A stretch of DNA of 64,000 bases, from assembly GCA_029262235.1 (NCBI GenBank), contig JAJCZU010000006.1, forward strand, positions 336,268 through 400,267, read 5' to 3'. This stretch comes from Candidatus Eiseniibacteriota bacterium (GTDB lineage Bacteria > Orphanbacterota > Orphanbacteria > Orphanbacterales > Orphanbacteraceae). Below the pieces are notes generated by a model. The model searched no databases. It saw only the letters and a program-made list of their open reading frames with translations, and had not been told where the DNA came from. The translations under genes and the position numbers were made by a program. Below are positions 2,813 through 15,831 of this stretch, in pieces. Each line of letters begins with the position of its first letter. Position 1 is the stretch's first letter.

Positions 2813-3361
2813 GTGGAAGAACGCAAATGGCGCAAAATCGAGTCGCGTCCGGCGGGCCATTTCGGCATCTTTTCCGTTCGCTACGACCGGTCGCGGTCCC
2901 CCGTATCCGGCTATGAACGCGAGTACACCGTGCTGGAAGCGGTCGACTGGGTGAACGTCGTGGCGGTGACCCCGGAGGGGCGGTTCGTGCTGGTGCGCCA
3001 GTTCCGTCACGGCACAGGCGAATACACGGTCGAAATCGCCGGGGGCGGCGTCGACCGTGGCGAGTCTCCGGAAGCGGCCGCCCGGCGTGAACTCGAGGAA
3101 GAAACGGGGTATGTGGCGGACGACTGGGATCTGCTCGGCGTGGTCGAGCCCAATCCGGCGTTTCAGGCGAATCTCTGCCATACTTATCTGGCGCGCGACG
3201 CGCGACCGGCGGGGAAAACGGCGCCCGACCCGGGCGAGGAGATCGAGATCCTGGCGTGGGACGTATCGGAGGTTCACGAAGCCATCCGCCGCGGCGTCAT
3301 TCGGCACGCCCTCGTGATTGCCGCGTTCTTCTGGTACGAGAAATGGTCGAAGCGCGCCTGA
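2813..3361 (+). CDS. Nudix hydrolase, ADP-ribose pyrophosphatase type
   Basis: A 182-residue enzyme of the ADP-ribose/NDP-sugar pyrophosphatase group, which splits ADP-ribose into AMP and ribose 5-phosphate. The Nudix box is GGGVDRGESPEAAARRELE plus EETGY. The preceding strand EYTVEIAGG and the segment VAVTPEGRFVLVRQFRHG are typical of this subfamily. The start is GTG, with a strong GGGAGGGGG ribosome site just upstream. It is divergent from the other Nudix gene, with 84 bases between the two starts, so a shared promoter region is likely. The exact NDP-sugar specificity is inferred. Confidence 0.87.
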   Translation: MEERKWRKIESRPAGHFGIFSVRYDRSRSPVSGYEREYTVLEAVDWVNVVAVTPEGRFVLVRQFRHGTGEYTVEIAGGGVDRGESPEAAARRELEEETGYVADDWDLLGVVEPNPAFQANLCHTYLARDARPAGKTAPDPGEEIEILAWDVSEVHEAIRRGVIRHALVIAAFFWYEKWSKRA

Positions 3362-3419
3362 GGACTCGCGAAATCCCCGGCGCGCGGCGCAAAGAAATCG
3401 TCATCCTGCCGGGAACCGT

Positions 3420-3425
3420 TATAAT
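3420..3425 (+). promoter_or_regulatory. Predicted sigma-70 -10 box of the PqqD-HprK-B2 operon
   Basis: A perfect TATAAT lies 46 bases before the PqqD-like start. The -35 region about 17 bases upstream (ATCGTC area, 3397-3403) is poor. It marks the likely start of the six-gene operon and leaves no room for a precursor peptide between promoter and first gene. Confidence 0.45.
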
Positions 3426-3471
3426 CATCAGGCGCTCCCGGGATAGCGAACGGCATGCCGGAGCTTCATGG

Positions 3472-3792
3472 ATGGTCGTTCCCGGATTCATGGAGGATCG
3501 TTTGACTGCACTTTCAGCAAGCACGCTTCTGACGCACGCTCCCGACGTCCCTTCACGCCCCGTCGAGGGAAAAGGGGTGCTCATCAACCTGGACAGCGGC
3601 CACTACTTCAGCTTGAACGAGACCGGCCAGTTCATCTGGGCGCGGTTGAACGGGGAGCAGGATCTGGGGGCGATCGCGGCGGAGGTTGCCGCGGAGTACG
3701 AGGTCAATCCGGAGGAGGCGCTCGACGACACTCTTGCTCTCGCCATCGAACTTCTGCGCGAAGGACTGGTCGACGTGATCCGGGCGGAATGA
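3472..3792 (+). CDS. PqqD-family peptide-binding protein (RiPP recognition element)
   Basis: A 106-residue protein with the small winged-helix fold that binds leader peptides of ribosomally made, modified peptides. Diagnostic segments are VLINLDSGHYFSLNETGQFIW, in which the strand pair and Asn-Glu-Thr-Gly turn are typical, then LGAIAAEVAAEYEV and the helical end LALAIELLREGLVDV. The ATG at 3472 has a GGAG eight bases upstream; the next ATG at 3490 is possible. Its stop overlaps the next gene by ATGA. In lasso-peptide clusters this protein pairs with the B2 protease encoded two genes downstream, which supports a leader-binding role here. Confidence 0.85.
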   Translation: MVVPGFMEDRLTALSASTLLTHAPDVPSRPVEGKGVLINLDSGHYFSLNETGQFIWARLNGEQDLGAIAAEVAAEYEVNPEEALDDTLALAIELLREGLVDVIRAE

Positions 3793-4781
3793 CGGACTCC
3801 GGCCTTCATATGACGCTGCTTTCGCAGAGCGCCCGTGTTCGGTCCGACGAGGAGCGTTATCTGTTCGCGATACGCGACGCTTTCCCCCATCTCGAGGCAA
3901 CGCCGACTGCTGCGCCCGGAATCTATCCCGATTCCCGACCTCTCCAATACACATATAAGGAAGGGCGGAAGAGCGACCTCTTCATCGACTCGCTCGGGGA
4001 TCCGATCGCCCACTCTCTGGACTTCAATCTTTACCACTGGAAGAATTCGTTTCTCGTCAGCGCGGGGGAGCGGTCGTTCGCGCAATGCTTCTGGGACGAC
4101 GCCCGCGTCGAGGTCACGGTCCATCCCGATGACCGGGAGAACGACTGGGTGGTCGCGCATCGCCTGTTCTTCCTGCCGCTGCTCGAGTGGATGCGCCGTG
4201 CGGGGTATTACCCGATTCACGCCGCCGCCTTTGCGGTCGCCGGGCGCACGATTCTCGTTTCCGGGCCGAGCGGATCGGGCAAGTCGACCACGTCACTTGC
4301 TGCGCTCGCGGCCGGCGCCCCGTTTCTCACGGACGACACTCTGTTCGTGAGCCGGGATCCAGGCGGAATGCTCCTGCTGAATCCGTTCCCCGAGCCGGTC
4401 AAGATCGGTCGCGAATCGGCGCGATGGTTTCCGCAGTGGCGTCAGGATTTCGTCGAACGCCACGGGAAAATCTCACTTCCCGATAACAAGTTGCCCGGTG
4501 GCGGGCGAATGACGAACTGCGCTCCCGGGCTCTTGCTCTTTCCCTCGTTCTCAGAAGAAAAGGTCACGAGCTTCGAACCGATGTCCCGGTCCGAGGCGAT
4601 GGTCCGTCTGTTGCCGCAGTCCGCCATTCCTTCGACAGCCCGCGTACTGCAGTCGCACATGGATCTGCTTGGTGACCTCGTGGAGGCGTCGGATCCTTAC
4701 TTCTTTCGATTCGCGGCGGACGTACCCGATCTCATCGCGCATATCGATCGGCTTGTACGCGCAAAGGGGCGATCGCATTGA
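3789..4781 (+). CDS. HprK-like serine kinase / P-loop kinase of RiPP-type clusters
   Basis: A 330-residue protein with an HPr-kinase-like P-loop domain. The Walker A motif GPSGSGKST is at 159-167, and the acidic pair of FLTDD at 182-183 matches the HprK acidic motif. About 150 N-terminal residues replace the usual HprK sensor domain. Related stand-alone kinases occur in paeninodin-type lasso clusters, where they phosphorylate the precursor C-terminus; that role here is an inference. The start ATG overlaps the PqqD stop, so the genes are translationally coupled. It is too different from true HprK, and has no HPr gene nearby, to be a carbon-catabolite regulator. Confidence 0.82.
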   Translation: MTDSGLHMTLLSQSARVRSDEERYLFAIRDAFPHLEATPTAAPGIYPDSRPLQYTYKEGRKSDLFIDSLGDPIAHSLDFNLYHWKNSFLVSAGERSFAQCFWDDARVEVTVHPDDRENDWVVAHRLFFLPLLEWMRRAGYYPIHAAAFAVAGRTILVSGPSGSGKSTTSLAALAAGAPFLTDDTLFVSRDPGGMLLLNPFPEPVKIGRESARWFPQWRQDFVERHGKISLPDNKLPGGGRMTNCAPGLLLFPSFSEEKVTSFEPMSRSEAMVRLLPQSAIPSTARVLQSHMDLLGDLVEASDPYFFRFAADVPDLIAHIDRLVRAKGRSH

Positions 4782-5242
4782 ACGCCCTCGAAAGCGCCAT
4801 TCAAAAGTATCCGCTGCCCTGGAGCCGGCTCCTGACCCCGCGCAACATGACGCGCCTGGCGGCGGACACGACGAAAGCGCTACACCTGCTCGTCTCTCTC
4901 AGGAGCAGGACGATCACCGAACTTTTTCCCCCGCTCGGCGCAGGCGACACATTCGATCTGGAGGGGGCGGCCCTGGTCAGCGCGCTTACGGAAAAGCTTT
5001 TTCGCATGCGCGTGTTCCCATACGAGCGAACGTGCCTGCGAAGGTGTCTGGTTCTCTATCACCTGTTCGCGAAGTACGGACTCCCGGTCCGCGTGGCATT
5101 CGGCGTCGACCCGTCCGGCGAAGGAGACTGGGCGGGCCACTGCTGGTTACTGCACGAAGGGAAACCCTTTCTCGAGCAGGCGGGGAGCGACGAGGCCTAT
5201 CTTGCGGTCTTCGAACTTCCGCGGGAGAGGGGGCGCGCATGA
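4778..5242 (+). CDS. Lasso peptide biosynthesis B2-like transglutaminase-fold protease
   Basis: A 154-residue cysteine-protease-like protein of the B2 family, which in lasso systems removes the leader peptide. The catalytic cysteine is expected in RTCLRRCLVLYHLF (Cys86, with Cys90 next to it), and His121 lies in WAGHCWLL. The position 12 residues after His, Asp in McjB-type enzymes, is Glu133. The tail FELPRE matches the family end. The start is TTG overlapping the kinase stop (TTGA). The split B1/B2 arrangement with the upstream PqqD protein is as in known clusters, but no ATP-dependent cyclase is present. Confidence 0.8.
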   Translation: MNALESAIQKYPLPWSRLLTPRNMTRLAADTTKALHLLVSLRSRTITELFPPLGAGDTFDLEGAALVSALTEKLFRMRVFPYERTCLRRCLVLYHLFAKYGLPVRVAFGVDPSGEGDWAGHCWLLHEGKPFLEQAGSDEAYLAVFELPRERGRA

Positions 5243-6417
5243 GAGGCATCGAACTGCGCCAGGAAGCCGCACTGCTGCGGTGCCTGCTTCGCCCGGCGAT
5301 CGATCAGGCGGAGCTCGAAGCCCTGCTGGCGCGTCGCGTCAACTGGCATCGCTTCGAGGAAGTGCTGTTCCGTTCGAAGCTGGTTCCGCTGGCGGGGCGA
5401 CGCATGGAGAATGGAACGGGACTCGTGGAGAACATGCCGGCCGACCTTCGCAGCCGGCTTGCAAAAGAGGGCGTGCGCGCCGCGGTCAGAACGCTGCTGA
5501 AGGAAAAAGAACTGGCTGCCGTGGTCGTCGAAATGGAACGGGAAGGGATCCGCCCCCTCGTGCTGAAGGGGCTTCCGTTCGCGCAGAGACATTTTACGGA
5601 CGCGTCCGCGCGCGACATTCGGGATCTCGATCTGCTGATTCCGCCGGAGCACCTTCCCGCGGCGGAAGATGTGCTGACCGGCCTCGGCTATCATCTGTTC
5701 ACGTCGATCCATTCGCGCGAGTACTACCGGCGCCACCACTTTCATCTCGTGTTCGTGCGCATGCGACAGTCCGTAGACGTGGTGGAGCTTCATTGGAACC
5801 TGCTTCATCCGAGGCAGGGACTTCACTTCGATATCGCCAGGCTGTATCGCGCGGCCCGACCCGAACAATACGGAAACGCAGAACTGTTACTGCTCGAACC
5901 GATCGATGAAATCCTGTACATGATGATCAGCTATCGGATGTCGTCTTTTCTTTCGCTGAAGCGTCTCGTCGATCTTGCGTTCGCGATCGAGAGTCGGCGC
6001 GGGACCGACTGGAAGGAGCGGGTCATGACACGCGGACGTGAGTGGGGGCTTTCGCGCGAAACGGAAGCCGCGTTCCACTTCCTGCATCGATTCTGGGGCG
6101 ATGACGAATACCGGATCGAGCCTTCGAGCAGAACGCGCGGTCTCGCTTCGCGCTACCGGGGCGAGGACTTCTTCGGTGTTTCCCCGCGCCGCTCTCTTGC
6201 GTACCGCATGTGGTGCGCCTCGTGCCTTTCCGGCTACAGCCCGCTCCGATTCGCGGGCAACGTGCTCATCCCGAACGAGCAGATCCGGTCCGAGCTTTAC
6301 TACACGCGCGAAGAGGAAACGTCGCGGATGCATGAATGCAAACGATTCATCTCCGGCCTCGGCTCTCTCGTCGATCTCGGTGCGAACTGGGCGCTGTCCC
6401 CGTTTCGAAAGTTATAA
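5239..6417 (+). CDS. NTP_transf_5 nucleotidyltransferase-family protein
   Basis: A 392-residue protein of the uncharacterised nucleotidyltransferase family that accompanies PqqD, HprK-like and B2 genes. The nucleotidyltransferase core shows VLKGLPFAQRHF near 108-119 and the metal-binding ARDIRDLDLLI near 124-134, with Asp129 and Asp131. The rest is helical, with HLVFVRMRQSVDVVELHWNL typical of the family. The ATG overlaps the B2 stop (ATGA) and has a GGGAGAGGGGG ribosome site. The target is unknown; transfer of a nucleotide or polyphosphate group onto the peptide is a family-level guess. Confidence 0.83.
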   Translation: MRGIELRQEAALLRCLLRPAIDQAELEALLARRVNWHRFEEVLFRSKLVPLAGRRMENGTGLVENMPADLRSRLAKEGVRAAVRTLLKEKELAAVVVEMEREGIRPLVLKGLPFAQRHFTDASARDIRDLDLLIPPEHLPAAEDVLTGLGYHLFTSIHSREYYRRHHFHLVFVRMRQSVDVVELHWNLLHPRQGLHFDIARLYRAARPEQYGNAELLLLEPIDEILYMMISYRMSSFLSLKRLVDLAFAIESRRGTDWKERVMTRGREWGLSRETEAAFHFLHRFWGDDEYRIEPSSRTRGLASRYRGEDFFGVSPRRSLAYRMWCASCLSGYSPLRFAGNVLIPNEQIRSELYYTREEETSRMHECKRFISGLGSLVDLGANWALSPFRKL

Positions 6418-6420
6418 GTG

Positions 6421-7431
6421 ATGCAGCCGGCCATCAGCTTTCAATCGATCTCGAAGACGTATCGCGGTACGCGCGGATGGCTCGACTGGCTGCCCGGACG
6501 CGGGGGCGCGACCGGCGACAAGCGCGCGCTTCAGAATGTGTCTTTTCTCGTACGTCCCGGCGAGATCGTTTCGCTGCTCGGCCCGAACGGCTCGGGTAAG
6601 ACTACGGCGATCAAAATCCTGTCTTCTCTGATCACACCGACGGAGGGGAACGCCGCGATCGCGGGTTTCGACACGAAAGGGAAGAGCCTGCAGAGCCGTG
6701 CGCAAATCGGGTACTGCATGGCGGAGGAGCGCAGCTTCTACTTTCGCCTGACCGGGCGGCAGAACCTGCGCTTCTTCGGGCGGCTCCGCGGGCTCTCGCA
6801 CGCGGCCGTAGACCGCGATATCAAGAGGCTCGAACCGATCCTCCGCCACGGCGATCTCGATGGTCGCTTCATGACGTATTCAACCGGCATGAAGCAGAAG
6901 CTTTCGCTGTTTCGGGCCTTGATCGGAAACGCGCCCGTGCTGCTGCTTGACGAACCGACGCGCGGCCTCGATCCGCATTCTACGAAAATGTTTCTCGACG
7001 AATTGCGCGCTTACGCGCGGGATCGCGGCACGGCGATTCTGCTTGCGAGTCATGATCTCGACGCGGTGGACCGGGTGTCCGACAGGCTGCTCTTCCTGCA
7101 CCGCGGGCGCCTGCTGGCCGACGATACTCCGGACGAAGTGCTGCGGCGCTTCTCGATTCCGCAGGAAGTCGTGATCGAAGTCCGCGACCCGGACGAGTCG
7201 TTTCGCGCGGCGCTCAGGCGAACGGTCGGGGACGGCGCGCGCGAAGAACTCGATCGGGGGGGAGGAACCGTACGGTTTACGTGCGAAGTAGAGGGCGCCG
7301 AAACGGACTGGGTGCGGTTTCTGCGCGAGCAGTCCGGGGCTCATGGCGGCGTCGTGCGCCTTTCGTGGAAACCCGGATCTCTGGAATCGCTGTTCGCGCG
7401 CTTTTCAGTCGAAGACGGAGACGAGCGATGA
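6421..7431 (+). CDS. ABC-2 type transporter ATP-binding protein
   Basis: A 336-residue ATPase driving an ABC-2 exporter. Walker A is GPNGSGKTT at 54-62, the signature is YSTGMKQKLSLF, and Walker B is VLLLDEPTRGLDP. About 80 residues follow the nucleotide-binding domain, similar to the accessory tails of NatA- and wzt-like ATPases. A GTG directly before the ATG could also serve as start. The gene follows the nucleotidyltransferase by three bases and overlaps the permease by ATGA. Exporting the product of the upstream modification genes is the natural inference. Confidence 0.9.
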   Translation: MQPAISFQSISKTYRGTRGWLDWLPGRGGATGDKRALQNVSFLVRPGEIVSLLGPNGSGKTTAIKILSSLITPTEGNAAIAGFDTKGKSLQSRAQIGYCMAEERSFYFRLTGRQNLRFFGRLRGLSHAAVDRDIKRLEPILRHGDLDGRFMTYSTGMKQKLSLFRALIGNAPVLLLDEPTRGLDPHSTKMFLDELRAYARDRGTAILLASHDLDAVDRVSDRLLFLHRGRLLADDTPDEVLRRFSIPQEVVIEVRDPDESFRAALRRTVGDGAREELDRGGGTVRFTCEVEGAETDWVRFLREQSGAHGGVVRLSWKPGSLESLFARFSVEDGDER

Positions 7432-8237
7432 TCGGGAGCAAGCCGGCCGCGTTCATCGCGAAGGATTACCGCGTCGCCACGAGCTACCGGCTCGCGTTTC
7501 TGCTGCAATGGGCCGGCATCGGATTCACCCTGGCGCTGTTCTTTTTCCTCGCCCGCCTTGTCGATCCCACGATGACTCCGTATCTCGAGAAATACGGGGG
7601 CGACTACTTCTCGTTCGTGTTGATCGGAATCGCGTTCTCGAACTATCTCTCGACCGGTCTGAACGCGTTCGCGTCACGCATTCGAGAAGAGCAGGTGGTG
7701 GGCACCCTGGAAGCGGTTCTCTCGACCCCGACACGCTTCGGCACGTATCTGCTCTCTTCCGCGCTCTGGAGTTTCCTGTGGGCGTCGCTGCAGATCGTCG
7801 TGTATCTCGTGGGCGGCGTCGTCTTCTTCGGCGTCGAGCTCGCATCGCCGAACTATGGCGCCGCGGCCGCCTTTCTCGCCCTTACCGTTCTTTCCTTTTC
7901 GAGTCTCGGGATCCTTGCCGCGAGTTTTATCCTCGTTCTGAAGCGCGGGAATCCCGTGAACTGGGTTTTCACATCGCTTTCGCGCCTGCTCGGGGGCGTC
8001 TATTTTCCGCTCACGGTTCTTCCGGGCTGGCTGCAGAAGGTGGCGCTCTTTCTGCCGCTCACGTACGCGCTCGAAGGGATGAGGATGACGCTGCTGCAGG
8101 GCCAGGGCCTCGGGGAGCTGCGGAGCGAATTTCTCGCGCTGCTCCTCTTTACCGCCGTGACACTGCTGCTCGGTTTCTGGTCGGCGCATTTTGCGGTGGC
8201 CCGTGCACGGCGCGACGGGACGCTCGGGCAATACTGA
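7428..8237 (+). CDS. ABC-2 type transporter permease
   Basis: A 269-residue inner-membrane protein with six hydrophobic segments, including LAFLLQWAGIGFTLALFFFL near the start and FTAVTLLLGFWSAHFAV at the end. The loop REEQVVGTLEAVLSTPT is typical of ABC-2 permeases, as is GGVYFPLTVLPGWLQ. It is translationally coupled to the ATPase. It is the last gene of the operon; the next gene has its own extended -10 promoter and start signals. Confidence 0.9.
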   Translation: MIGSKPAAFIAKDYRVATSYRLAFLLQWAGIGFTLALFFFLARLVDPTMTPYLEKYGGDYFSFVLIGIAFSNYLSTGLNAFASRIREEQVVGTLEAVLSTPTRFGTYLLSSALWSFLWASLQIVVYLVGGVVFFGVELASPNYGAAAAFLALTVLSFSSLGILAASFILVLKRGNPVNWVFTSLSRLLGGVYFPLTVLPGWLQKVALFLPLTYALEGMRMTLLQGQGLGELRSEFLALLLFTAVTLLLGFWSAHFAVARARRDGTLGQY

Positions 8238-8278: not shown

Positions 8279-8307
8279 CGGCTCCGAATTTTCCGAGGGG
8301 AGTATTG

Positions 8308-9918
8308 TTGAATTCCATGGCAGAACAAACGATGGATGAACGCCCGCCGTGGCACGCGTTTCTGGCGTCGCCGGCGCTCGTGGCACTGCTCGGCGCGCTG
8401 ATTGCAGGCGGGGCAGGACTCCTGCAGCTCCGCATGCTGCGCTTCGGCGCGCTCGCCCCGTCGCAGGCCCCGGTTTTCTGGGCATGGTTCCTGGGACTCG
8501 GGATCGGACTGGCGCTGGCCGGCGCCGTTCTCGGAGCGCTGCTTGGCCGCCGCAAGGTGATTTCGTTTCTGCTCGCCGCCGTGCTTCCGGTCGCGCTCTT
8601 CTGGCTGCTGCTCCCGAGTAACGTGCGGGAGCGTCCGCACGTGCTTCTGCTCGTGACCGATACGACGCGCTCGGACCATCTCTCCGTTTATGGTTACGAG
8701 AAGACGACGACGCCGTTTCTCGACTCGTATGCGGACCAGTCCGTGGTCTTCGAGAACTCGGTCTCGCAGGGAACGCACACGATCGTTTCGACTCCGTGCA
8801 TCGTCGCATCCTGCTATCCGTCGGAGCACGGAATTACGGGGTACGCGGACGTGCTCGCGAATCGCTTCACGCTCATATCCGAATACCTGCACGAGTACGG
8901 CTACAATACGTACGGCTATGCCACGAACCCGCATCTCAGTCCGCGTAACGGATACGCCCAGGGCTTCGACAAATACGAACACGATCCGAGCTGGGCGTAC
9001 ACGCCGGCCGAGAAAGTGAACGATCGATTCTTCGCCTGGCTTTCCGAGCAGGATACCCAGCCGTTTTTCGGTTTTCTGTTCTACATCGATCCGCACAATC
9101 CGTACACGCCGCCGCCTGCTTTCCAGACTCTGTTCGACCCCGAATGGAAGGGCGATCCGATCAGCGACTGGAAGCACGAGCTGGGCGAACCCGAGCCCGC
9201 GAAGCTGAAGAACATGATCGCCCAGTACGACGGCGCCATCTGCTACTGGGACAGCGAACTGCGCAAGATGGTCGAACGTCTCGAGACAATGGGCGTCATG
9301 GAGAACACGATGCTCGTTTATACATCCGATCATGGCGAGGAGTTTTACGAGCACGGCTACTGGGGGCATAACAAGCTGCCGTACGAGTCGTCGGTAGGCG
9401 TGCCGCTCATCATCTCGTTCCCCTCGCCGATCGATTTTCCGCCTCTGCCGCGCGCCCACGGCATGGTGGATGAAGTCGTTTCGAACGTGGATGTCGTGCC
9501 GACGATTCTCGAGTATCTGCGGATCGAGGCGGATGAAACGACGCGGGGGCGGAGCGCGGTGCCGCTCGTGTTCGGCGGCGACCAGGGGCCGGAACGCATC
9601 GCCTACGGCGAAGAGATCCTGAAACGATACGGACCGTACGACATTCGATCCATTCGTACGAAAACGCACAAATACATCAAAGTTTTTCAGTATGAAAACA
9701 TCGCCAATCCTCCCGACCTCTTTTTCGATCTGGTCGAAGATCCGATGGAAAAGCGGAATTTGACGAAGGATCGCGCGGAAGATGCCGCCCTGCACGAGCA
9801 GATTCTCGATCTTCGGATCGCGGAAGTCTCGGGGCTCGGATCCGCGGAAGTCGATACGGTTGCAATGGATGAGGCGCAACTGGAACGTTTGAAGGCTTTG
9901 GGCTACCTCGGCGACTGA
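8308..9918 (+). CDS. Membrane-anchored sulfatase-like (alkaline phosphatase superfamily) hydrolase with Thr nucleophile
   Basis: Three hydrophobic segments in the first 100 residues are followed by a periplasmic alkaline-phosphatase-superfamily domain. Asp118 lies in LLVTDTTRSDHLS and Asp341-His342 in YTSDHGEE; both are metal ligands. The nucleophile region reads THTIVSTPCIV before CYPSEHG. Aligned backwards from the YP-x-x-HG landmark, Thr158 falls where true sulfatases carry the formylglycine Cys or Ser, so this is more likely a phosphodiesterase or phosphotransferase. A GGGGAG site sits five bases from TTG 8308; ATG 8317 is the alternative. The C-terminus ends LKALGYLGD, common in this family. 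Confidence 0.82.
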   Translation: MNSMAEQTMDERPPWHAFLASPALVALLGALIAGGAGLLQLRMLRFGALAPSQAPVFWAWFLGLGIGLALAGAVLGALLGRRKVISFLLAAVLPVALFWLLLPSNVRERPHVLLLVTDTTRSDHLSVYGYEKTTTPFLDSYADQSVVFENSVSQGTHTIVSTPCIVASCYPSEHGITGYADVLANRFTLISEYLHEYGYNTYGYATNPHLSPRNGYAQGFDKYEHDPSWAYTPAEKVNDRFFAWLSEQDTQPFFGFLFYIDPHNPYTPPPAFQTLFDPEWKGDPISDWKHELGEPEPAKLKNMIAQYDGAICYWDSELRKMVERLETMGVMENTMLVYTSDHGEEFYEHGYWGHNKLPYESSVGVPLIISFPSPIDFPPLPRAHGMVDEVVSNVDVVPTILEYLRIEADETTRGRSAVPLVFGGDQGPERIAYGEEILKRYGPYDIRSIRTKTHKYIKVFQYENIANPPDLFFDLVEDPMEKRNLTKDRAEDAALHEQILDLRIAEVSGLGSAEVDTVAMDEAQLERLKALGYLGD

Positions 9919-9954
9919 TCCGGAATTAGTTCCCCTCTCATACGTTGCTTCCGC

Positions 9955-9960
9955 TATAAT
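9955..9960 (+). promoter_or_regulatory. Predicted -10 box of the secreted metallopeptidase gene
   Basis: A perfect TATAAT in an otherwise non-coding 121-base gap, 80 bases upstream of the ATG at 10040. The -35 region is not convincing. Confidence 0.4.
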
Positions 9961-10039
9961 ATAAAGCGTCTCCAATCGGCTCTCCCGGCCGACATTCCCA
10001 TTTCCATAATTCGTACCAGCTCCCGACAAAGGTATACAA

Positions 10040-12988
10040 ATGCGACCCATCGCCATTGCGTTGACGCTGGCAGTCGGCCTGTTGACACTTGCGGGTCCGG
10101 CGGACGCCTTCCGCCCGACGACCCAGGCCGAGCAGGATGCCTGGACGATCGAGAAGCCCGTAAGCTACACGAGAGTTTTCGATCGCTTCGTGCGAAGCGA
10201 AGAACAGGTTGATCTCGGTCTCGCCGAGTTTCAATCCCGTGTGGGCGGGCGCTGGGCGATTCAGCGCGATCCGATGACGAATTCGCCGCACATGATCCTC
10301 GGGAGCGGGGTTTCGTACAGCCAGTCACGCGTGGAGAGTGAAGGGCGCGCCGAAGAGCTGTCGCGCTCGTTTCTGAGTGAGCACGCGGACATCCTCATGC
10401 TCGATCCGAACCGCCTCGGCGCGCCGCATGTCGTGCATCAGGATGGAAAGTGGTCTGTCGTTTTCCCTGAATCGTACGAGGGCGTCTACGTACACGGCGG
10501 GCGGGCTCATGTCGTCATGACCGAAGAGGGACGCATCTACGCGCTCGGTTCGGACCTTCACCCGAATGTCACCGCCGATCTCGTTAACGTGATCGACGAA
10601 GCCGAGGCCGTGGCCGTTGCGAAGAACAACATGTTCTACATGGACGGCCGGGACTTCATGCGTGAAAAACCGGAGTTCGTCATTCAGCCGGTTCGATCGG
10701 GAAGCGCGTACGTATACCGGCCTACCTGGAAAGTGATCGTGCACACGCAGGAGCCGTTCGGCGGATGGCGGCACTGGATCGACGCGAATACGGGCGAGAT
10801 CTACGCCCGCGAAAACATGTACGAGAGACTGGACGTGATCGGCACGGTACGCGCCGACATCGAAGAGCCCGGCTACTGCGACGGCGAATCGGACCTGCCG
10901 CTCAAAAACGTCAATATCCGCATTCCTTCGGGAGTCGGCGGGAACACCGACGAGAACGGCCACTTCGTCATACCCGACGTCGGTGTGGACACCGTTTTGA
11001 TTTCGACTCAGTTCCGCGGCACGTACTTCCGGGAGTTTCACATCACGGGCACGGCTTCGCAGGATACGTTTCCCTGGTACCCGGGCGACACGCTCGACTT
11101 CCGCTGGAACGACGGGAACTCACTGCAGTCCGAGCGCGACGCCTGGCGCGGGCACTGGCAGGTGCGGGACATGATCGAAACCGTCGACCCCGCGCTTACG
11201 ACGAACGACTACCAGATGCCGCTCAACATCGAGCGAACCGACGGTTTCTGCCCTGGCAACGCCTGGTGGGACGGCTGGTCCACGAACTACTGTCTGCAGA
11301 GCCTCCAGTATGCGAATACGGCCTGGCTCGGCGACGTGATGTATCACGAGTACGGCCACGGCATCAACCAGTGGACATACGCGGGCATGCCTTTTTCGGA
11401 TCCGCAGTCGGAAGGGAACGCCGACGTGACCACGATCATGGTCCTGCCGCGGCCCACCCTCGGTATCGGGTTCAACAACGGTGCCTGCAATATCGGGATC
11501 CGTTCCGCGAACATGGGCGAAACCTATCCGGCCGACCTGACGGGCGGGGGGCATCATGACGGCCAGTTCATATCGGGATTCGTGTGGGAGTACCGGAACA
11601 GAATGATCACGACGTATGGCGAGGCCTACACGGACTCGATCATGCCGTATCTCTGGCACTTCAGCAGAAAGAGTGGAAAGCCCTCGAACATGCAGGATCA
11701 GGTCACGTGGTTCTTTATCTACGATGATGATGACGGCAACCTCGACAACGGCACGCCGAACTTTACGGAACTTGCGGGTGCGGCGACCGAGATCGGATTC
11801 TCGGTGCCGACGATTACGCAAGGCGTGCACATCACACACGGAGGCCTGAACGCGACCACCGACGATTCGAACCCGCGTACCGTCGTGGCGACGGCGATCT
11901 CTCTCTCGGCCGGCGTCGATCCATCTTCAGTCGCCCTGCACTACAGGGTTGACGGGGGCAGCTACACGACCGTCCCGATGACACCGACAGGCGGCGCGGA
12001 CGAGTACTCGGCCGCAATCCCGGCGTCCGGCGAGGGAACGCGGGTCGAATACTTCGTCGACGCGACGGACTCGTCGTTCAATCAAGGCTTCAGTCCGACG
12101 AACGCGGCAACCGCGCCCCACGCATACGATGTCGTGCTGGTGTACGACGATTGCGAATCGCTCGGCGGATGGACGCTCGGCGATCCGTCGGACGACGCGA
12201 CGAAGGGGGTCTGGATCAACGACGATCCGATGGGGAACGACACGCGACCCGAGGACGATGCGTCACCCGAAGGAACGAACTGTTTCGTCACCGGGAACAG
12301 TGGGAACGTTCGTAACGGGAAGACGACACTCTACTCGCCGGCTTATCAGCTGAACGGGGCCGGCAGCGTGATCGCGAAATACCGGCGCTGGTACTCGAAC
12401 AACTATGATGCGACAGGCGTTCTGCAGACACTGGACGAGTTCTGGGATGCGGATGCTTCGAATAACGGCGGCGCGAGCTGGACACCGATCGAGCACGTCG
12501 GCAGCGGATCGGAGTCGTGGGTCGAGGTCGAAGTCGATCTCGGCGCTCTCTTCGGGGCGATCGACTCGGTGCAGTTCCGGTTCGTCGCGCGCGACACGGG
12601 CGATCCGACGCGTGTGCACGCGGCCGTGGACGATGTCCGGCTGCTCATTCCCGCCAGTATCGCGACTTCCGTCGATGGCGCGTCAGAGGAAGCGCCCGGC
12701 ACGGCTCCCATGGTGTACAGACTCGAGGAGAACCGCCCGAATCCGTTCAACCCGGTGACCAGGATCGCGTACGAACTTCCGCGCAGGAGTCCCGTGACGC
12801 TCGAGGTCTTCGACGTGACAGGTCGTCTCGTGAAGACCCTTGTCAGCAAGGTGCAGGCGACCGGACGGCACGAAGTGATGTGGAACGGCACGAACGATGC
12901 CGGACGGAGCGTTTCGTCCGGGCTCTACTTCTATAAGCTGGAGTCGAATACTTTCTCGAAGACACGGAAGATGATGCTCGTCAAATAG
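10040..12988 (+). CDS. Secreted M36/fungalysin-like metallopeptidase with FlgD-like C-terminal sorting module
   Basis: A 982-residue secreted protein. A signal peptide (MRPIAIALTLAVGLLTLAGPADA) leads to a propeptide-like region (80-250) with FTP/PepSY-style segments such as WKVIVHTQEPFGGWRHWID. The zinc site is HEYGH at 436-440, with the third ligand expected in QSEGNADV downstream. Around residue 595 begin Ig-like/bacterial domains (LHYRVDGGSYTTVPM), then a jelly-roll-like region. The end carries NRPNPFNPVTRIAYELP and VTGRLVKTLV, the FlgD-Ig/T9SS-type module common to several proteins in this window. A perfect hairpin terminator follows. The substrate is unknown; degradation of extracellular protein is expected. 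Confidence 0.85.
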   Translation: MRPIAIALTLAVGLLTLAGPADAFRPTTQAEQDAWTIEKPVSYTRVFDRFVRSEEQVDLGLAEFQSRVGGRWAIQRDPMTNSPHMILGSGVSYSQSRVESEGRAEELSRSFLSEHADILMLDPNRLGAPHVVHQDGKWSVVFPESYEGVYVHGGRAHVVMTEEGRIYALGSDLHPNVTADLVNVIDEAEAVAVAKNNMFYMDGRDFMREKPEFVIQPVRSGSAYVYRPTWKVIVHTQEPFGGWRHWIDANTGEIYARENMYERLDVIGTVRADIEEPGYCDGESDLPLKNVNIRIPSGVGGNTDENGHFVIPDVGVDTVLISTQFRGTYFREFHITGTASQDTFPWYPGDTLDFRWNDGNSLQSERDAWRGHWQVRDMIETVDPALTTNDYQMPLNIERTDGFCPGNAWWDGWSTNYCLQSLQYANTAWLGDVMYHEYGHGINQWTYAGMPFSDPQSEGNADVTTIMVLPRPTLGIGFNNGACNIGIRSANMGETYPADLTGGGHHDGQFISGFVWEYRNRMITTYGEAYTDSIMPYLWHFSRKSGKPSNMQDQVTWFFIYDDDDGNLDNGTPNFTELAGAATEIGFSVPTITQGVHITHGGLNATTDDSNPRTVVATAISLSAGVDPSSVALHYRVDGGSYTTVPMTPTGGADEYSAAIPASGEGTRVEYFVDATDSSFNQGFSPTNAATAPHAYDVVLVYDDCESLGGWTLGDPSDDATKGVWINDDPMGNDTRPEDDASPEGTNCFVTGNSGNVRNGKTTLYSPAYQLNGAGSVIAKYRRWYSNNYDATGVLQTLDEFWDADASNNGGASWTPIEHVGSGSESWVEVEVDLGALFGAIDSVQFRFVARDTGDPTRVHAAVDDVRLLIPASIATSVDGASEEAPGTAPMVYRLEENRPNPFNPVTRIAYELPRRSPVTLEVFDVTGRLVKTLVSKVQATGRHEVMWNGTNDAGRSVSSGLYFYKLESNTFSKTRKMMLVK

Positions 12989-13013
12989 AGCGGATCGTCT
13001 GCATGGAAACGGA

Positions 13014-13050
13014 AAGAGGGGTGAATCGCAAGGATTCACCCCTCTTCATT
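13014..13050 (+). terminator. Rho-independent terminator after the metallopeptidase gene
   Basis: A perfect 12-base arm GAGGGGTGAATC (13016-13027) pairs with GATTCACCCCTC (13033-13044) around a five-base loop, extended by two A-T pairs, and is followed by TTCATTTTT. Confidence 0.9.
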
Positions 13051-13075
13051 TTTCCGCCCGTTTCGGGACGCTGTC

Positions 13076-13330
13076 TTACCAGCGGCCGAGGTAGCGCAGG
13101 AAGGTGATGTACTGCCACCAGAAGATGTTCACGCCGCCAAGGAATGACGTGCGACCGCGACGGTCCTGATTGTCGCTCACCGTAGTGGTTTCGTGATCCA
13201 CCGTCTGTTCCACCGCCGGGGTGGACGAGTGCGAGACCGAGTGCGTGCCGCCGAAACCGGCGAGCGCGACCTGGGGTCCCACGAGCGTGAAAATCAGCGT
13301 AAGTACGATCAAAAGTCGTCCGAGCTTCAT
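13076..13330 (-). CDS. Small secreted protein of unknown function
   Basis: An 84-residue protein with a clear signal peptide (MKLGRLLIVLTLIFTLVG, cleavage near ALA-GFG), a polar Ser/Thr/His middle (HSVSHSSTPAVEQTVDHETTT) and an aromatic, hydrophobic end (VNIFWWQYITFLRYLGRW) that could insert in a membrane. A strong AGGAGG sits seven bases before the ATG, and a promoter with 17-base spacing precedes it. I do not recognise the family. It converges with the metallopeptidase gene at the terminator. Confidence 0.7.
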   Translation of the reverse strand: MKLGRLLIVLTLIFTLVGPQVALAGFGGTHSVSHSSTPAVEQTVDHETTTVSDNQDRRGRTSFLGGVNIFWWQYITFLRYLGRW

Positions 13331-13381: not shown

Positions 13382-13410
13382 TTTTAGTCTCCGGGAGGGT
13401 ACTGATGCAA
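13382..13410 (-). promoter_or_regulatory. Sigma-70-like promoter of the small secreted protein
   Basis: On the minus strand TTGCAT and CTAAAA are separated by 17 bases, 52 bases upstream of the ATG. Confidence 0.5.
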
Positions 13411-13610
13411 CCCGCAGGCCAAGAGAACGCCTTCCGGAAGCGTGAACCGGGAACTCTATAAATCATTGATCTGGCATGGGTTCCCGTGTGTGCGATTTCT
13501 GCGCATCCGAACGGACACCGCGGCCCGGCCCAGCGAGGGGACAGGTCGGTTGAATTTTTCTGCGCGCCGTTGCAAAAGTCGCCTTGCGGAATTGCAGATC
13601 GCGTCTCCGT

Positions 13611-13640
13611 TTGCCCTCCGGGCGGGCGGGACCTACAATA
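13611..13640 (+). promoter_or_regulatory. Sigma-70-like promoter of the PDZ-radical SAM gene
   Basis: TTGCCC and TACAAT are separated by 18 bases and end 40 bases before the ATG. Apart from this promoter and the minus-strand one, the 13331-13680 gap shows nothing else I can support. Confidence 0.5.
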
Positions 13641-13680
13641 GAGACTGCACAATGAACGGAATCGGAGGGGATGGAAGTCT

Positions 13681-15021
13681 ATGGCGCGTGGCGTCCTGGT
13701 AGAAGAAGTAAAGCCGGGTTCTCCCGGCCAGCTGAGCGGGATTCTGGCGGGAGACCGCCTGATCGAAGTGAACGGCCGCAATGTGGACGATCACCTCGAC
13801 ATCCGGTTTCATGCGGCCACGCCGGGCGATGTCAGGCTGAGCCTGCAGCGAACCGGGGAATCGCTCGAACTGACGCTCCCGGAGCAGCGCTATCCACTCC
13901 GGGGGATCACGTTCGAGGAGATCAAGACGAAGGTCTGCGGCAGCGCCTGCATCTTCTGCTTCATCGATCAGCTGCCCGACGGCGTCCGCAGTTCCCTCAA
14001 GGTCAAAGACGAAGATTATCGCCTTTCTTTCCTTCACGGAAACTACATGACGCTGAATACGCTCAAGGATCGCGATATCGAGCGGATTTTCGAACAGCGT
14101 CTCTCGCCGCTCTACGTTTCGATTCACTCCGTCGATCCCGAAGTCCGCGCGAAGATTCTCGGGCGCCCGCCGAGACGTGAACTGATTCCCACGATCGAAA
14201 CTCTGCTCGGCGGCGGAATCGAACTGTACGGCCAGATCGTCCTTTGCCCGAAAGTGAACGATGGCGCGATTCTCGACGAAACGATCGAAGTGCTTGGGGG
14301 ATATCATCCGGGCATGAAAGCAATTGCCGTCGTACCGCTCGGCCTGTCCGCGCACAGAGATGAGAATCCGCTGCTCAGTCCTGTAACGAAGGAAGTCGCC
14401 GGCCGCGTGCTCGATCAGATTCACGAGCACCAGGAACGGCTTCTCAAAGAGAAGGGGACGCGTTTCGTGTGGCCGGGCGACGAGTTCTTCCTGAAGGCCG
14501 AACGGCCGCTCCCCGCGTCGGATTATTACGAAGCGTTCGATCAGTATGAGGACGGCATCGGCATGATCCGCTCGTTTACGAATGAATTCGAGAAAGCGCT
14601 GACCGCCGTCTCGCATCGTACGCCCGTCACGAAGAAGCTCGCGATCGTAACGGGAACGCTCTTCGCGAAGACGCTCGAAGGCATGGTAGGACAGCTGGCG
14701 GAGCGTTCCGGCATGGAACTCCGCGTCATTCCCGTGCCGAACGATTTTCTTGGACGCGCCATCAATGTAGCGGGTCTGCTCTGCGGACAGGATATCGCGC
14801 GCGTGATCGCGGCGGAGGCGCCGGGCTGGGACGTGGCGATTCCGGCCGAGGTCGTTTCGCGCGCGAACGGCCTGCTCCTCGATGACTGGAGTCCGGACCG
14901 CGTGCGGAGCGAAGGGAGCGCGAACGAACTGTTCGTCGTGAACGGGCCGGGCGATCTCGTGAGATTGCTGTGGGAAGGGCGATGCGAGGGAGCCGGAACG
15001 GCGACCTATCCGCACGTCTGA
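13681..15021 (+). CDS. PDZ-radical SAM-DUF512 iron-sulfur protein
   Basis: A 446-residue protein of the DUF512 family. Residues 1-70 form a PDZ-like domain (GVLVEEVKPGSPGQLSGILAGD). The radical SAM-like cluster motif is CGSACIFC (C-x3-C-x2-C) near residue 86, directly followed by the family hallmark FIDQLPDGVRSSLKVKDED and SFLHGNYMTL. The C-terminal half (from about 300) holds the DUF512 part with VTGTLFAKTLEGM and the closing LDDWSPDRV and FVVNGPGDLVRLLW segments. The family's reaction is not established; it is widespread in Firmicutes and Cyanobacteria. The ATG has a GGAGGGG ribosome site. Confidence 0.88.
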   Translation: MARGVLVEEVKPGSPGQLSGILAGDRLIEVNGRNVDDHLDIRFHAATPGDVRLSLQRTGESLELTLPEQRYPLRGITFEEIKTKVCGSACIFCFIDQLPDGVRSSLKVKDEDYRLSFLHGNYMTLNTLKDRDIERIFEQRLSPLYVSIHSVDPEVRAKILGRPPRRELIPTIETLLGGGIELYGQIVLCPKVNDGAILDETIEVLGGYHPGMKAIAVVPLGLSAHRDENPLLSPVTKEVAGRVLDQIHEHQERLLKEKGTRFVWPGDEFFLKAERPLPASDYYEAFDQYEDGIGMIRSFTNEFEKALTAVSHRTPVTKKLAIVTGTLFAKTLEGMVGQLAERSGMELRVIPVPNDFLGRAINVAGLLCGQDIARVIAAEAPGWDVAIPAEVVSRANGLLLDDWSPDRVRSEGSANELFVVNGPGDLVRLLWEGRCEGAGTATYPHV

Positions 15022-15053
15022 TTCGAATCGGAATGAAAAGCAGTGCGAGCGGA

Positions 15054-15740
15054 TCAGGGCGTGGCGCCGATGGCCCCGATCTGGTAGAGCCACCCGGCCG
15101 GTATCGTGATCGTCACTGTCTTCTCCTCGAGCGAAGGTTCCAGCGTGATCTGCCTGCCGTCTCTGTCTCGCGCCACGACTTCGAGAAACGGGCCGATCCG
15201 TTCGTTTGTGTCGGGATCGTAGAACGCGATCGACTCGCCTTCCTTCCGCATTTCGAGCGCGGTAAGTATCTCTGAGATGATGACGAGATCGCCACCTTCC
15301 CAGAGCGGATTCTCGGAGAACTGCCACACCTGGCGGACATGATTCTGTCCGCCTTCGTAAGCTTCCCGGATCAATAATGTGCGCTGATAGGCCACCTGAT
15401 CGCCGTCGCTGCCGAAGGACGAGCTGCCTTTGCTCTCCGTCCAGACCACCTGCCCTTTCGAGCCGTGCATCTCCACGATCCAGTAGGCGAACTGCTTCTC
15501 ATGTTCGGTGAAGCGCCAGATCAGCCCTTCAGGAATGAACTCGCAGTAGTAACTGTCGCCCTTGAAAACGAATCCGGGGACTTCTTCGGCCATCTGGTTC
15601 GGAGCGTCGTATGTGCGGATGTCGGGGACGATCGGCTGTTCGTTCGTGCGGATGGGGGCGGGGTCCTTCGCCTGCACGATCCCGGCGGACAGGATCGCGC
15701 ATACGCCTAGAAATACAGAAAGGACACGGTGCGCTCTCAT
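15054..15740 (-). CDS. Secreted protein of unknown function
   Basis: A 228-residue protein with a signal peptide (MRAHRVLSVFLGVCAILSAG, cleavage near VQA-KDP). The mature part is rich in beta-strand-forming and aromatic residues: PEGLIWRFTEHEKQFAYWIV and VRQVWQFSENPLWEGGD. The ATG at 15738-15740 was chosen because it places the signal peptide at the N-terminus; a 42-residue upstream extension lacks signal character. The ribosome site is poor. I do not recognise the family. It lies downstream of the GH1 gene on the same strand but 91 bases away, so co-transcription is possible. Confidence 0.62.
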   Translation of the reverse strand: MRAHRVLSVFLGVCAILSAGIVQAKDPAPIRTNEQPIVPDIRTYDAPNQMAEEVPGFVFKGDSYYCEFIPEGLIWRFTEHEKQFAYWIVEMHGSKGQVVWTESKGSSSFGSDGDQVAYQRTLLIREAYEGGQNHVRQVWQFSENPLWEGGDLVIISEILTALEMRKEGESIAFYDPDTNERIGPFLEVVARDRDGRQITLEPSLEEKTVTITIPAGWLYQIGAIGATP

Positions 15741-15831
15741 AGTGCGAACGTACTCGTATCCGACCCTGTCTGTCAAGGGGGAGAGGGCGACAGGAGCCTG
15801 CTGAAAGGCACGGGAGCCTTCTTCGAATGGG

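Follow-up and report, generated by a model that had tools for sequence, protein, structure and literature searches.

In the 64,000-nucleotide window analysed here (positions 336,268 to 400,267 of contig JAJCZU010000006.1, assembly GCA_029262235.1, Candidatus Eiseniibacteriota bacterium), six plus-strand genes at 3490–8237 form a cassette of PqqD-type, HprK-like, B2, nucleotidyltransferase and ABC exporter genes. The cassette probably (at a probability of about 0.68) supplies maturation and export in a cyclase-free system for ribosomally synthesised and post-translationally modified peptides (RiPPs). Judging from sequence, the products would be linear, serine-phosphorylated peptides whose precursors are encoded in trans.

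The first gene (3490–3792; PF05402, 6.5e-19) encodes a PqqD/B1 protein, a discrete RiPP recognition element (RRE) predicted to bind a YxxP leader. It is followed by an HprK-like peptide kinase predicted to act on Ser (3789–4781; TIGR04352, 8.3e-12, under its cut-off; Hpr_kinase_C, 0.001), a predicted B2-type leader peptidase of transglutaminase fold, Transglut_core3 (4778–5242; PF13471, 5.6e-11; NF033537 lasso_biosyn_B2, 40.4 bits, cut-off 33), and an NTP_transf_5 nucleotidyltransferase whose predicted role is the attachment of a nucleotidyl or sugar-phosphate group to phosphoserine (5239–6417; PF14907, 1.1e-39). The last two genes encode predicted exporter subunits, a DrrA-like ABC ATPase (6421–7431; TIGR01188 drrA, 9.5e-55, under the curated cut-off) and an ABC-2 permease (7428–8237; PF01061, 6.1e-17). 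An earlier sequence-only reading of this DNA had described genes that overlap or lie a few bases apart, and the junctions are as it described, with four-base overlaps ATGA at 3789, TTGA at 4778, ATGA at 5239 and ATGA at 7428. The six genes are real, intact and translationally coupled. The start of PqqD is probably TTG 3502, behind GGAGG, rather than 3490, because no ATG is found at the corresponding position in the sister species.

The order PqqD/RRE–HprK-like–B2–NTP_transf_5–ABC-2 ATPase–permease was identical in all seven genomes sampled from the GTDB family of the window, which represent five genera (the genome carrying the window has 4.47 Mb in 11 contigs). A comparison of gene order across relatives had been proposed from the sequence alone, and this is its outcome. 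The sequence-only reading was also right about the kinship of the parts with paeninodin-type lasso clusters and about the missing asparagine-synthetase-like cyclase: there is no such gene at this spot, and no Asn_synthase or cyclase gene adjoins the cassette in any of the seven genomes. The cassette proteins share 38–97% identity with the window copies across the family, and the ABC ATPase is conserved in 7/7 genomes. The permease is the most conserved of the six (71–97%), and conservation of the exporter greatly exceeds that of the modifying genes. Ratios of nonsynonymous to synonymous substitution rates (dN/dS) against the sister species were, in cassette order, 0.16, 0.16, 0.19, 0.09, 0.06 and 0.02 (permease 0.023), so all six genes are under strong purifying selection. 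In the family alignment the Cys, His and Glu of B2 are invariant; the acidic residue is indeed Glu, as first noticed in the window, and its invariance makes it a trait of the lineage and not a sign of decay. The shared order and the low dN/dS speak against a chance arrangement, and the cassette is a functional, vertically inherited core-genome locus of this family.

Precursor genes were found in relatives at the place where the window has none. Between the NUDIX gene and PqqD, the intergenic DNA (3362–3489, plus strand) measures about 130 bp from the NUDIX stop, and inspection of the reading frames in the gap 3362–3501 showed no precursor, for which reason a hidden local precursor in the window was rejected. 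The corresponding gap is longer in G002, G003 and G005 and contains one, one and two small genes, respectively, encoding peptides with the leader YxxPx[LVI]xRHxx[LI]xxIT, e.g., MRHEKENYVKPELKRHENLKTITLVSDPKLHLERHELYVGDEL. A profile of these four cassette-adjacent peptides (A1), run on the seven family genomes, matched two loci of the window's own genome, both on a different contig from the cassette (E 2.2e-7 and 6.8e-6). They encode precursor a (38 amino acids; C2:236645-236761; MDRKSYEKPSVTKHGSLKEITLTSFSRADDAQSVEESS) and precursor b (31 amino acids; C2:241387-241482; MKKKTYEKPRVEKHGTLKEITLTSFQPPPPK). The absence of a precursor reported earlier thus held at this spot but not genome-wide, and the whole-genome search for leader-bearing small frames that had been suggested recovered both own peptides by profile. 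A strict DNA pattern of the leader missed both of them, as they carry a Lys before the motif His. Support independent of A1 came from the NCBIfam lasso RiPP leader model NF033521, which called both peptides (23.3 and 23.7, cut-off 19).

With the final profile, A3, matches at E 0.001 were obtained in six of the seven family genomes and in 0 of 186 genomes outside the family. All 11 peptides carry Y, P, T and S, the first three at lasso-type spacing, and 10 carry H. The invariant Ser stands three residues after the leader Thr, in T-[LM]-x-S, in 11/11 peptides. The link between the cassette and the own peptides was drawn from the leader match, from co-occurrence and from the copies in cis in relatives.

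Synteny at the second peptide locus extends over the own genome, G002, G003, G004, G005 and G006. There the peptide lies between a secreted protein of 1000–1400 amino acids and a 730-amino-acid propeller protein, both FlgD-Ig-tailed, as checked by the domains of the own-genome copies. In the own genome (contig C2; L071:8645-8761, 9143-13312, 13387-13482 and 13509-15794 for the precursors and flanking surface-protein genes), the two precursors stand on either side of a 1389-amino-acid secreted protein with He_PIG repeats and an FlgD-Ig tail, and downstream of them lies a Sortilin/BNR propeller protein, also with an FlgD-Ig tail. The synteny of precursors and surface-protein genes in five relatives suggests a functional link between the peptides and these proteins. 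A promoter-like TTGACN–16 to 18 bp–TAnnnT was present upstream of 9 of the 11 peptide genes (shuffle fraction <=0.05 each), and a hairpin followed by Ts stood after the stop in 8, being weak for the first gene of the G005 tandem pair. Most peptide genes are therefore predicted to be stand-alone units with their own promoter and terminator. The leader peptides at this syntenic locus in six genomes, together with those beside the cassette in three, support the earlier idea of a gene set that modifies, trims and exports a peptide made from a gene located elsewhere.

Starting from what was observed directly, namely the set of six genes and its conservation, the precursors with their leader motif and the invariant Ser, a pathway of five steps can be proposed. 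By analogy with characterised homologues, the PqqD/RRE would bind the YxxPx[V/L] leader and hand the peptide on for phosphorylation of the invariant Ser (Thr+3) by the HprK-like kinase. NTP_transf_5 may then, less firmly, place a nucleotidyl or glycosyl-phosphate group on the phosphoserine. The B2 protease, again by analogy with characterised homologues, would remove the leader at or just after Thr, and the ABC-2 exporter might finally secrete the short linear core. The proposed pathway was drawn from the invariant Ser, from the RRE Asn and Asp residues described below and from the phosphorylation of Ser3 in two known systems. In the linear polyphosphorylated peptides (LPPs) of the lppAKBSDN cluster of Paenibacillus alginolyticus, published in May 2026, the motif is YxxPxVLxHQxIxFETxxS, the HprK-like LppK phosphorylates Ser3, and cleavage occurs after Thr (PMC13381572). 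In the Bsf lasso cluster of Bradymonas sediminis, the kinase BsfK phosphorylates core Ser3 and is stimulated by B1 (PMC10368454).

The proteins themselves fit such a pathway to different degrees. The RRE was compared with LPP and lasso RREs in the form of the LppB and PbaB1 chains, and its closest solved relatives are the leader complexes of PbaB1 (9x90) and LppB (9x8z). Its N43 and D80 correspond to N33 and D70 of LppB, the residues that hold the Pro and Tyr of the leader in place (PMC13381572), and they are invariant in the seven family genomes and in G231, a genome of another lineage; PbaB1 has Gly and Gln at these two positions. Kinase residues H144, K165, D182 and D183 are invariant in the family alignment and correspond to the motif His-Lys-Asp-Asp known from peptide kinases (PMC9266682). 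The best match of the kinase was HprK-related kinase A at 44.8 bits, and as the cut-off is 200 the protein is placed in the superfamily but in no named subfamily. A search for the HprK-like protein on plasmids gave zero matches. D129/D131 and H185 of the nucleotidyltransferase and the core of its RDLDLLI motif are invariant in the family. In its structural model (predicted local distance difference test score, pLDDT, 83.9), residues 86–284 matched MenT1 and ANT(2'')-Ia at Z 14–15, and FKRP matched lower, at Z 8–9. The MenT1/ANT(2'')-Ia fold is consistent with nucleotidyl transfer, short of proof, and the structure search did not settle the donor.

Several points weigh against the proposed phosphopeptide pathway. 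The kinase, whose substrate is predicted by comparison with homologues, scores far under the cut-offs of the named HprK-related families. The cassette and the own precursors sit on separate contigs, and the peptide was not found in the sister species G001 (82% complete, 830 contigs). The greater conservation of the exporter may mean that its substrate is broader. In the LPP study an lppN deletion was without visible effect, which leaves the nucleotidyltransferase step unsupported there too (PMC13381572).

It is unlikely that the cassette acts on some other protein, or on a small molecule carried by the DrrAB-like exporter, while different enzymes serve the leader peptides. The own genome encodes a single PqqD protein and a single Transglut_core3 protein, which leaves no second RRE or B2 from either family. 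The lack of a peptide beside the cassette in four of the seven genomes speaks for another substrate, as does an exporter much more conserved than the modifying genes. However, peptides lie directly upstream of the cassette in G002, G003 and G005, and peptide occurrence follows the cassette (6/7 in the family versus 0/186 elsewhere).

Lasso-type leaders and RREs are usually read as signs of knotted peptides. The leader YxxPxL...T(-2), the discrete RRE (B1) and the B2 peptidase of a lasso system are all present here, but two defining features are lacking, a macrolactam cyclase with the cluster and a conserved core Asp/Glu at positions 7–9. With core boundaries placed according to published leader positions, Y(-17), P(-14), L(-12) and T(-2), the own cores are TSFSRADDAQSVEESS (peptide a) and TSFQPPPPK (peptide b). 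As the latter lacks both Asp and Glu, peptide b cannot form the isopeptide ring by which lassos are defined. In peptide a, core positions 7 and 8 are both Asp, and several peptides of relatives have an acid at 7–9, yet no conserved acid column was found at these positions across the 11 peptides.

A true lasso system would need its ring closed in trans by one of three Asn_synthase homologues of the own genome, which we regard as improbable. A genome-wide asparagine-synthetase search, as the sequence-only reading had advised, did reveal these homologues, but they are unlinked to the cassette and to the peptides and match the lasso cyclase model weakly or not at all. As in lasso cyclases, the glutaminase Cys2 is missing from all three, being replaced by Ala (L025 and L027 start with MAG, and L026 likewise according to the gene call). 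L025 matched the lasso cyclase model NF033535 at 78 bits against a cut-off of 525, and the best matches of the homologues were to other amidotransferase families. They are not found in all genomes: G002 (96% complete) has the cassette and two precursors, and the only Asn_synthase type in its whole genome is a normal MCG-type AsnB. The homologues lie on contigs C3 (L025), C10 (L026) and C8 (L027), one near flagellar genes and one near a carbamoyltransferase-like gene. In other families, cassettes whose kinase falls in this clade are also cyclase-free within the stretches examined, as described below.

That the cassette is a decayed lasso remnant, which would account for the absence of both cyclase and local precursor, has next to no probability and was rejected, since no relative has an adjacent cyclase, the gene set and its order are kept in 7/7 genomes, kinase, B2 and nucleotidyltransferase keep their catalytic residues throughout the family, dN/dS is 0.02–0.19, and intact conserved precursors exist elsewhere. 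Neither of the observations that the sequence-only reading had named as refuting it was thus made, be it a complete lasso cyclase and precursor next to a relative's copy or lost catalytic residues in several members.

A kinase profile run on 386 genomes matched 14 genomes outside the family at E 1e-15. The Asn_synthase profile gave zero matches in stretches of up to 20 kb around the examined non-family kinase matches, and cassettes of this kinase clade seem to be generally without a cyclase. The nearest kinases outside the family belong to PqqD–HprK–radical SAM–B2 cassettes (for example L036, L131, L132 and L130; SynChlorMet-like by name), which are cyclase-free in the examined stretches like the cassette of the window, but contain a radical SAM enzyme that is not present here and mostly have no NTP_transf_5 nearby. 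Cyclase-free sets of PqqD, HprK-like, radical SAM and B2 genes occur in several unrelated families (L036:7750-10528, L131:8027-10994, L132:7640-10451 and L037:6619-13876), with a probable precursor at L037:9054-9200. A literature search on PqqD, HPr kinase and radical SAM cassettes by those words found no paper.

The closest of these cassettes is that of G231, with the order PqqD–B2–radical SAM–two peptides–HprK–NTP5 (L130:6898-11548), lasso-type leaders and short cores. Its peptides read MK...PYTKPTLTKHKPLRDITA and then have cores down to 6 amino acids. Relative to the window family, the Ser is displaced by one or two residues towards the C-terminus, and the precise target position is therefore not the same. 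At least three further leader peptides of G231 lie elsewhere beside unrelated genes (including L156:9070-9443 and L157:5139-5342); scattered precursors thus occur in at least one further lineage. Another peptide pair, MGESGKTAELIDREAKESKA[AP]Y..., is located upstream at L130:4976-5276.

The surroundings of the cassette are also partly conserved. The NUDIX hydrolase gene (2813–3361, same strand) precedes the cassette in 7/7 family genomes, and LexA and a glycosyltransferase also lie upstream of it in all six genomes whose contig reaches far enough. Downstream of the permease, on the same strand, is a gene of the sulfatase/phosphoethanolamine-transferase superfamily (8305–9918), which is the next gene after the permease in 4/7 family genomes and might be part of the pathway.

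Lasso-type recognition appears here to serve linear peptides, and every family genome sampled keeps the machinery. Genome mining that looks only beside an RRE, or that demands a cyclase, overlooks such systems. If the phosphopeptide pathway is right, linear phosphorylated RiPPs would extend past Bacillota, with protease and exporter swapped. The locus also offers a compact assay case for the kinase and NTP_transf_5, with a 31-amino-acid precursor, a 9-amino-acid core and one conserved Ser. A use of the peptides at the cell surface or in signalling is a guess. Rather tentatively, one fixed machine may serve several scattered stand-alone precursor genes and make very short, linear, housekeeping (surface or signalling) phospho- or glycophospho-peptides, core and vertically inherited rather than traded antimicrobials, and the kinase clade that includes the radical SAM cassettes may form a cross-phylum class apart from lasso peptides.

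Among known systems, the paeninodin and pseudomycoidin clusters (PadeK, PsmK and PsmN) share with the cassette a His-Lys-Asp-Asp HprK-like kinase and an enzyme of NTP-transferase type, PsmN adding hexoses to phosphoserine in pseudomycoidin; their target is a C-terminal Ser, however, and a cyclase is present (PMC9266682). An RRE of PbaB1 type has Gly/Gln where Asn/Asp are found here. The Bsf cluster is similar in its B1, B2, kinase, nucleotidyltransferase and transporter and in a Ser3 near the start of the core, but it has a cyclase, a Gly1...Asp8 ring core, Ile(-2) and a precursor within the cluster (PMC10368454), whereas the cassette here is cyclase-free, its peptides have no conserved ring acid, and Thr is at -2.

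By sequence comparison, the Bacillota LPPs are the nearest of the known systems, so calling the locus an undescribed system was too strong: a cyclase-free RiPP family with RRE, HprK-like kinase and NTP transferase had been published. Like the cassette, LPP clusters have no macrolactam cyclase and combine these three proteins with a leader peptidase and an ABC exporter. The Tyr-type leader is in the same register (Y1, P4, V/L6, H9, I/L12, T16, S19), the N33/D70 equivalents of the RRE are kept, and the equivalent of the LPP phospho-Ser is invariant here. Two defining features of LPPs differ. The signal-peptidase-like LppS (SpI/SipW-type) has its place taken by the transglutaminase-fold B2, with no SpI gene in the cassette, and the MsbA-like LppD by a separate ABC-2 ATPase and permease (DrrAB-like). 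In addition, FE precedes T in LPP leaders and mostly EI does here, and a second locus encodes most of the precursors in trans, their cores being very short (down to 9 amino acids). LPPs were stated to be restricted to Bacillota and extremely patchy (PMC13381572), whereas the present system is inherited vertically across a whole family outside Bacillota.

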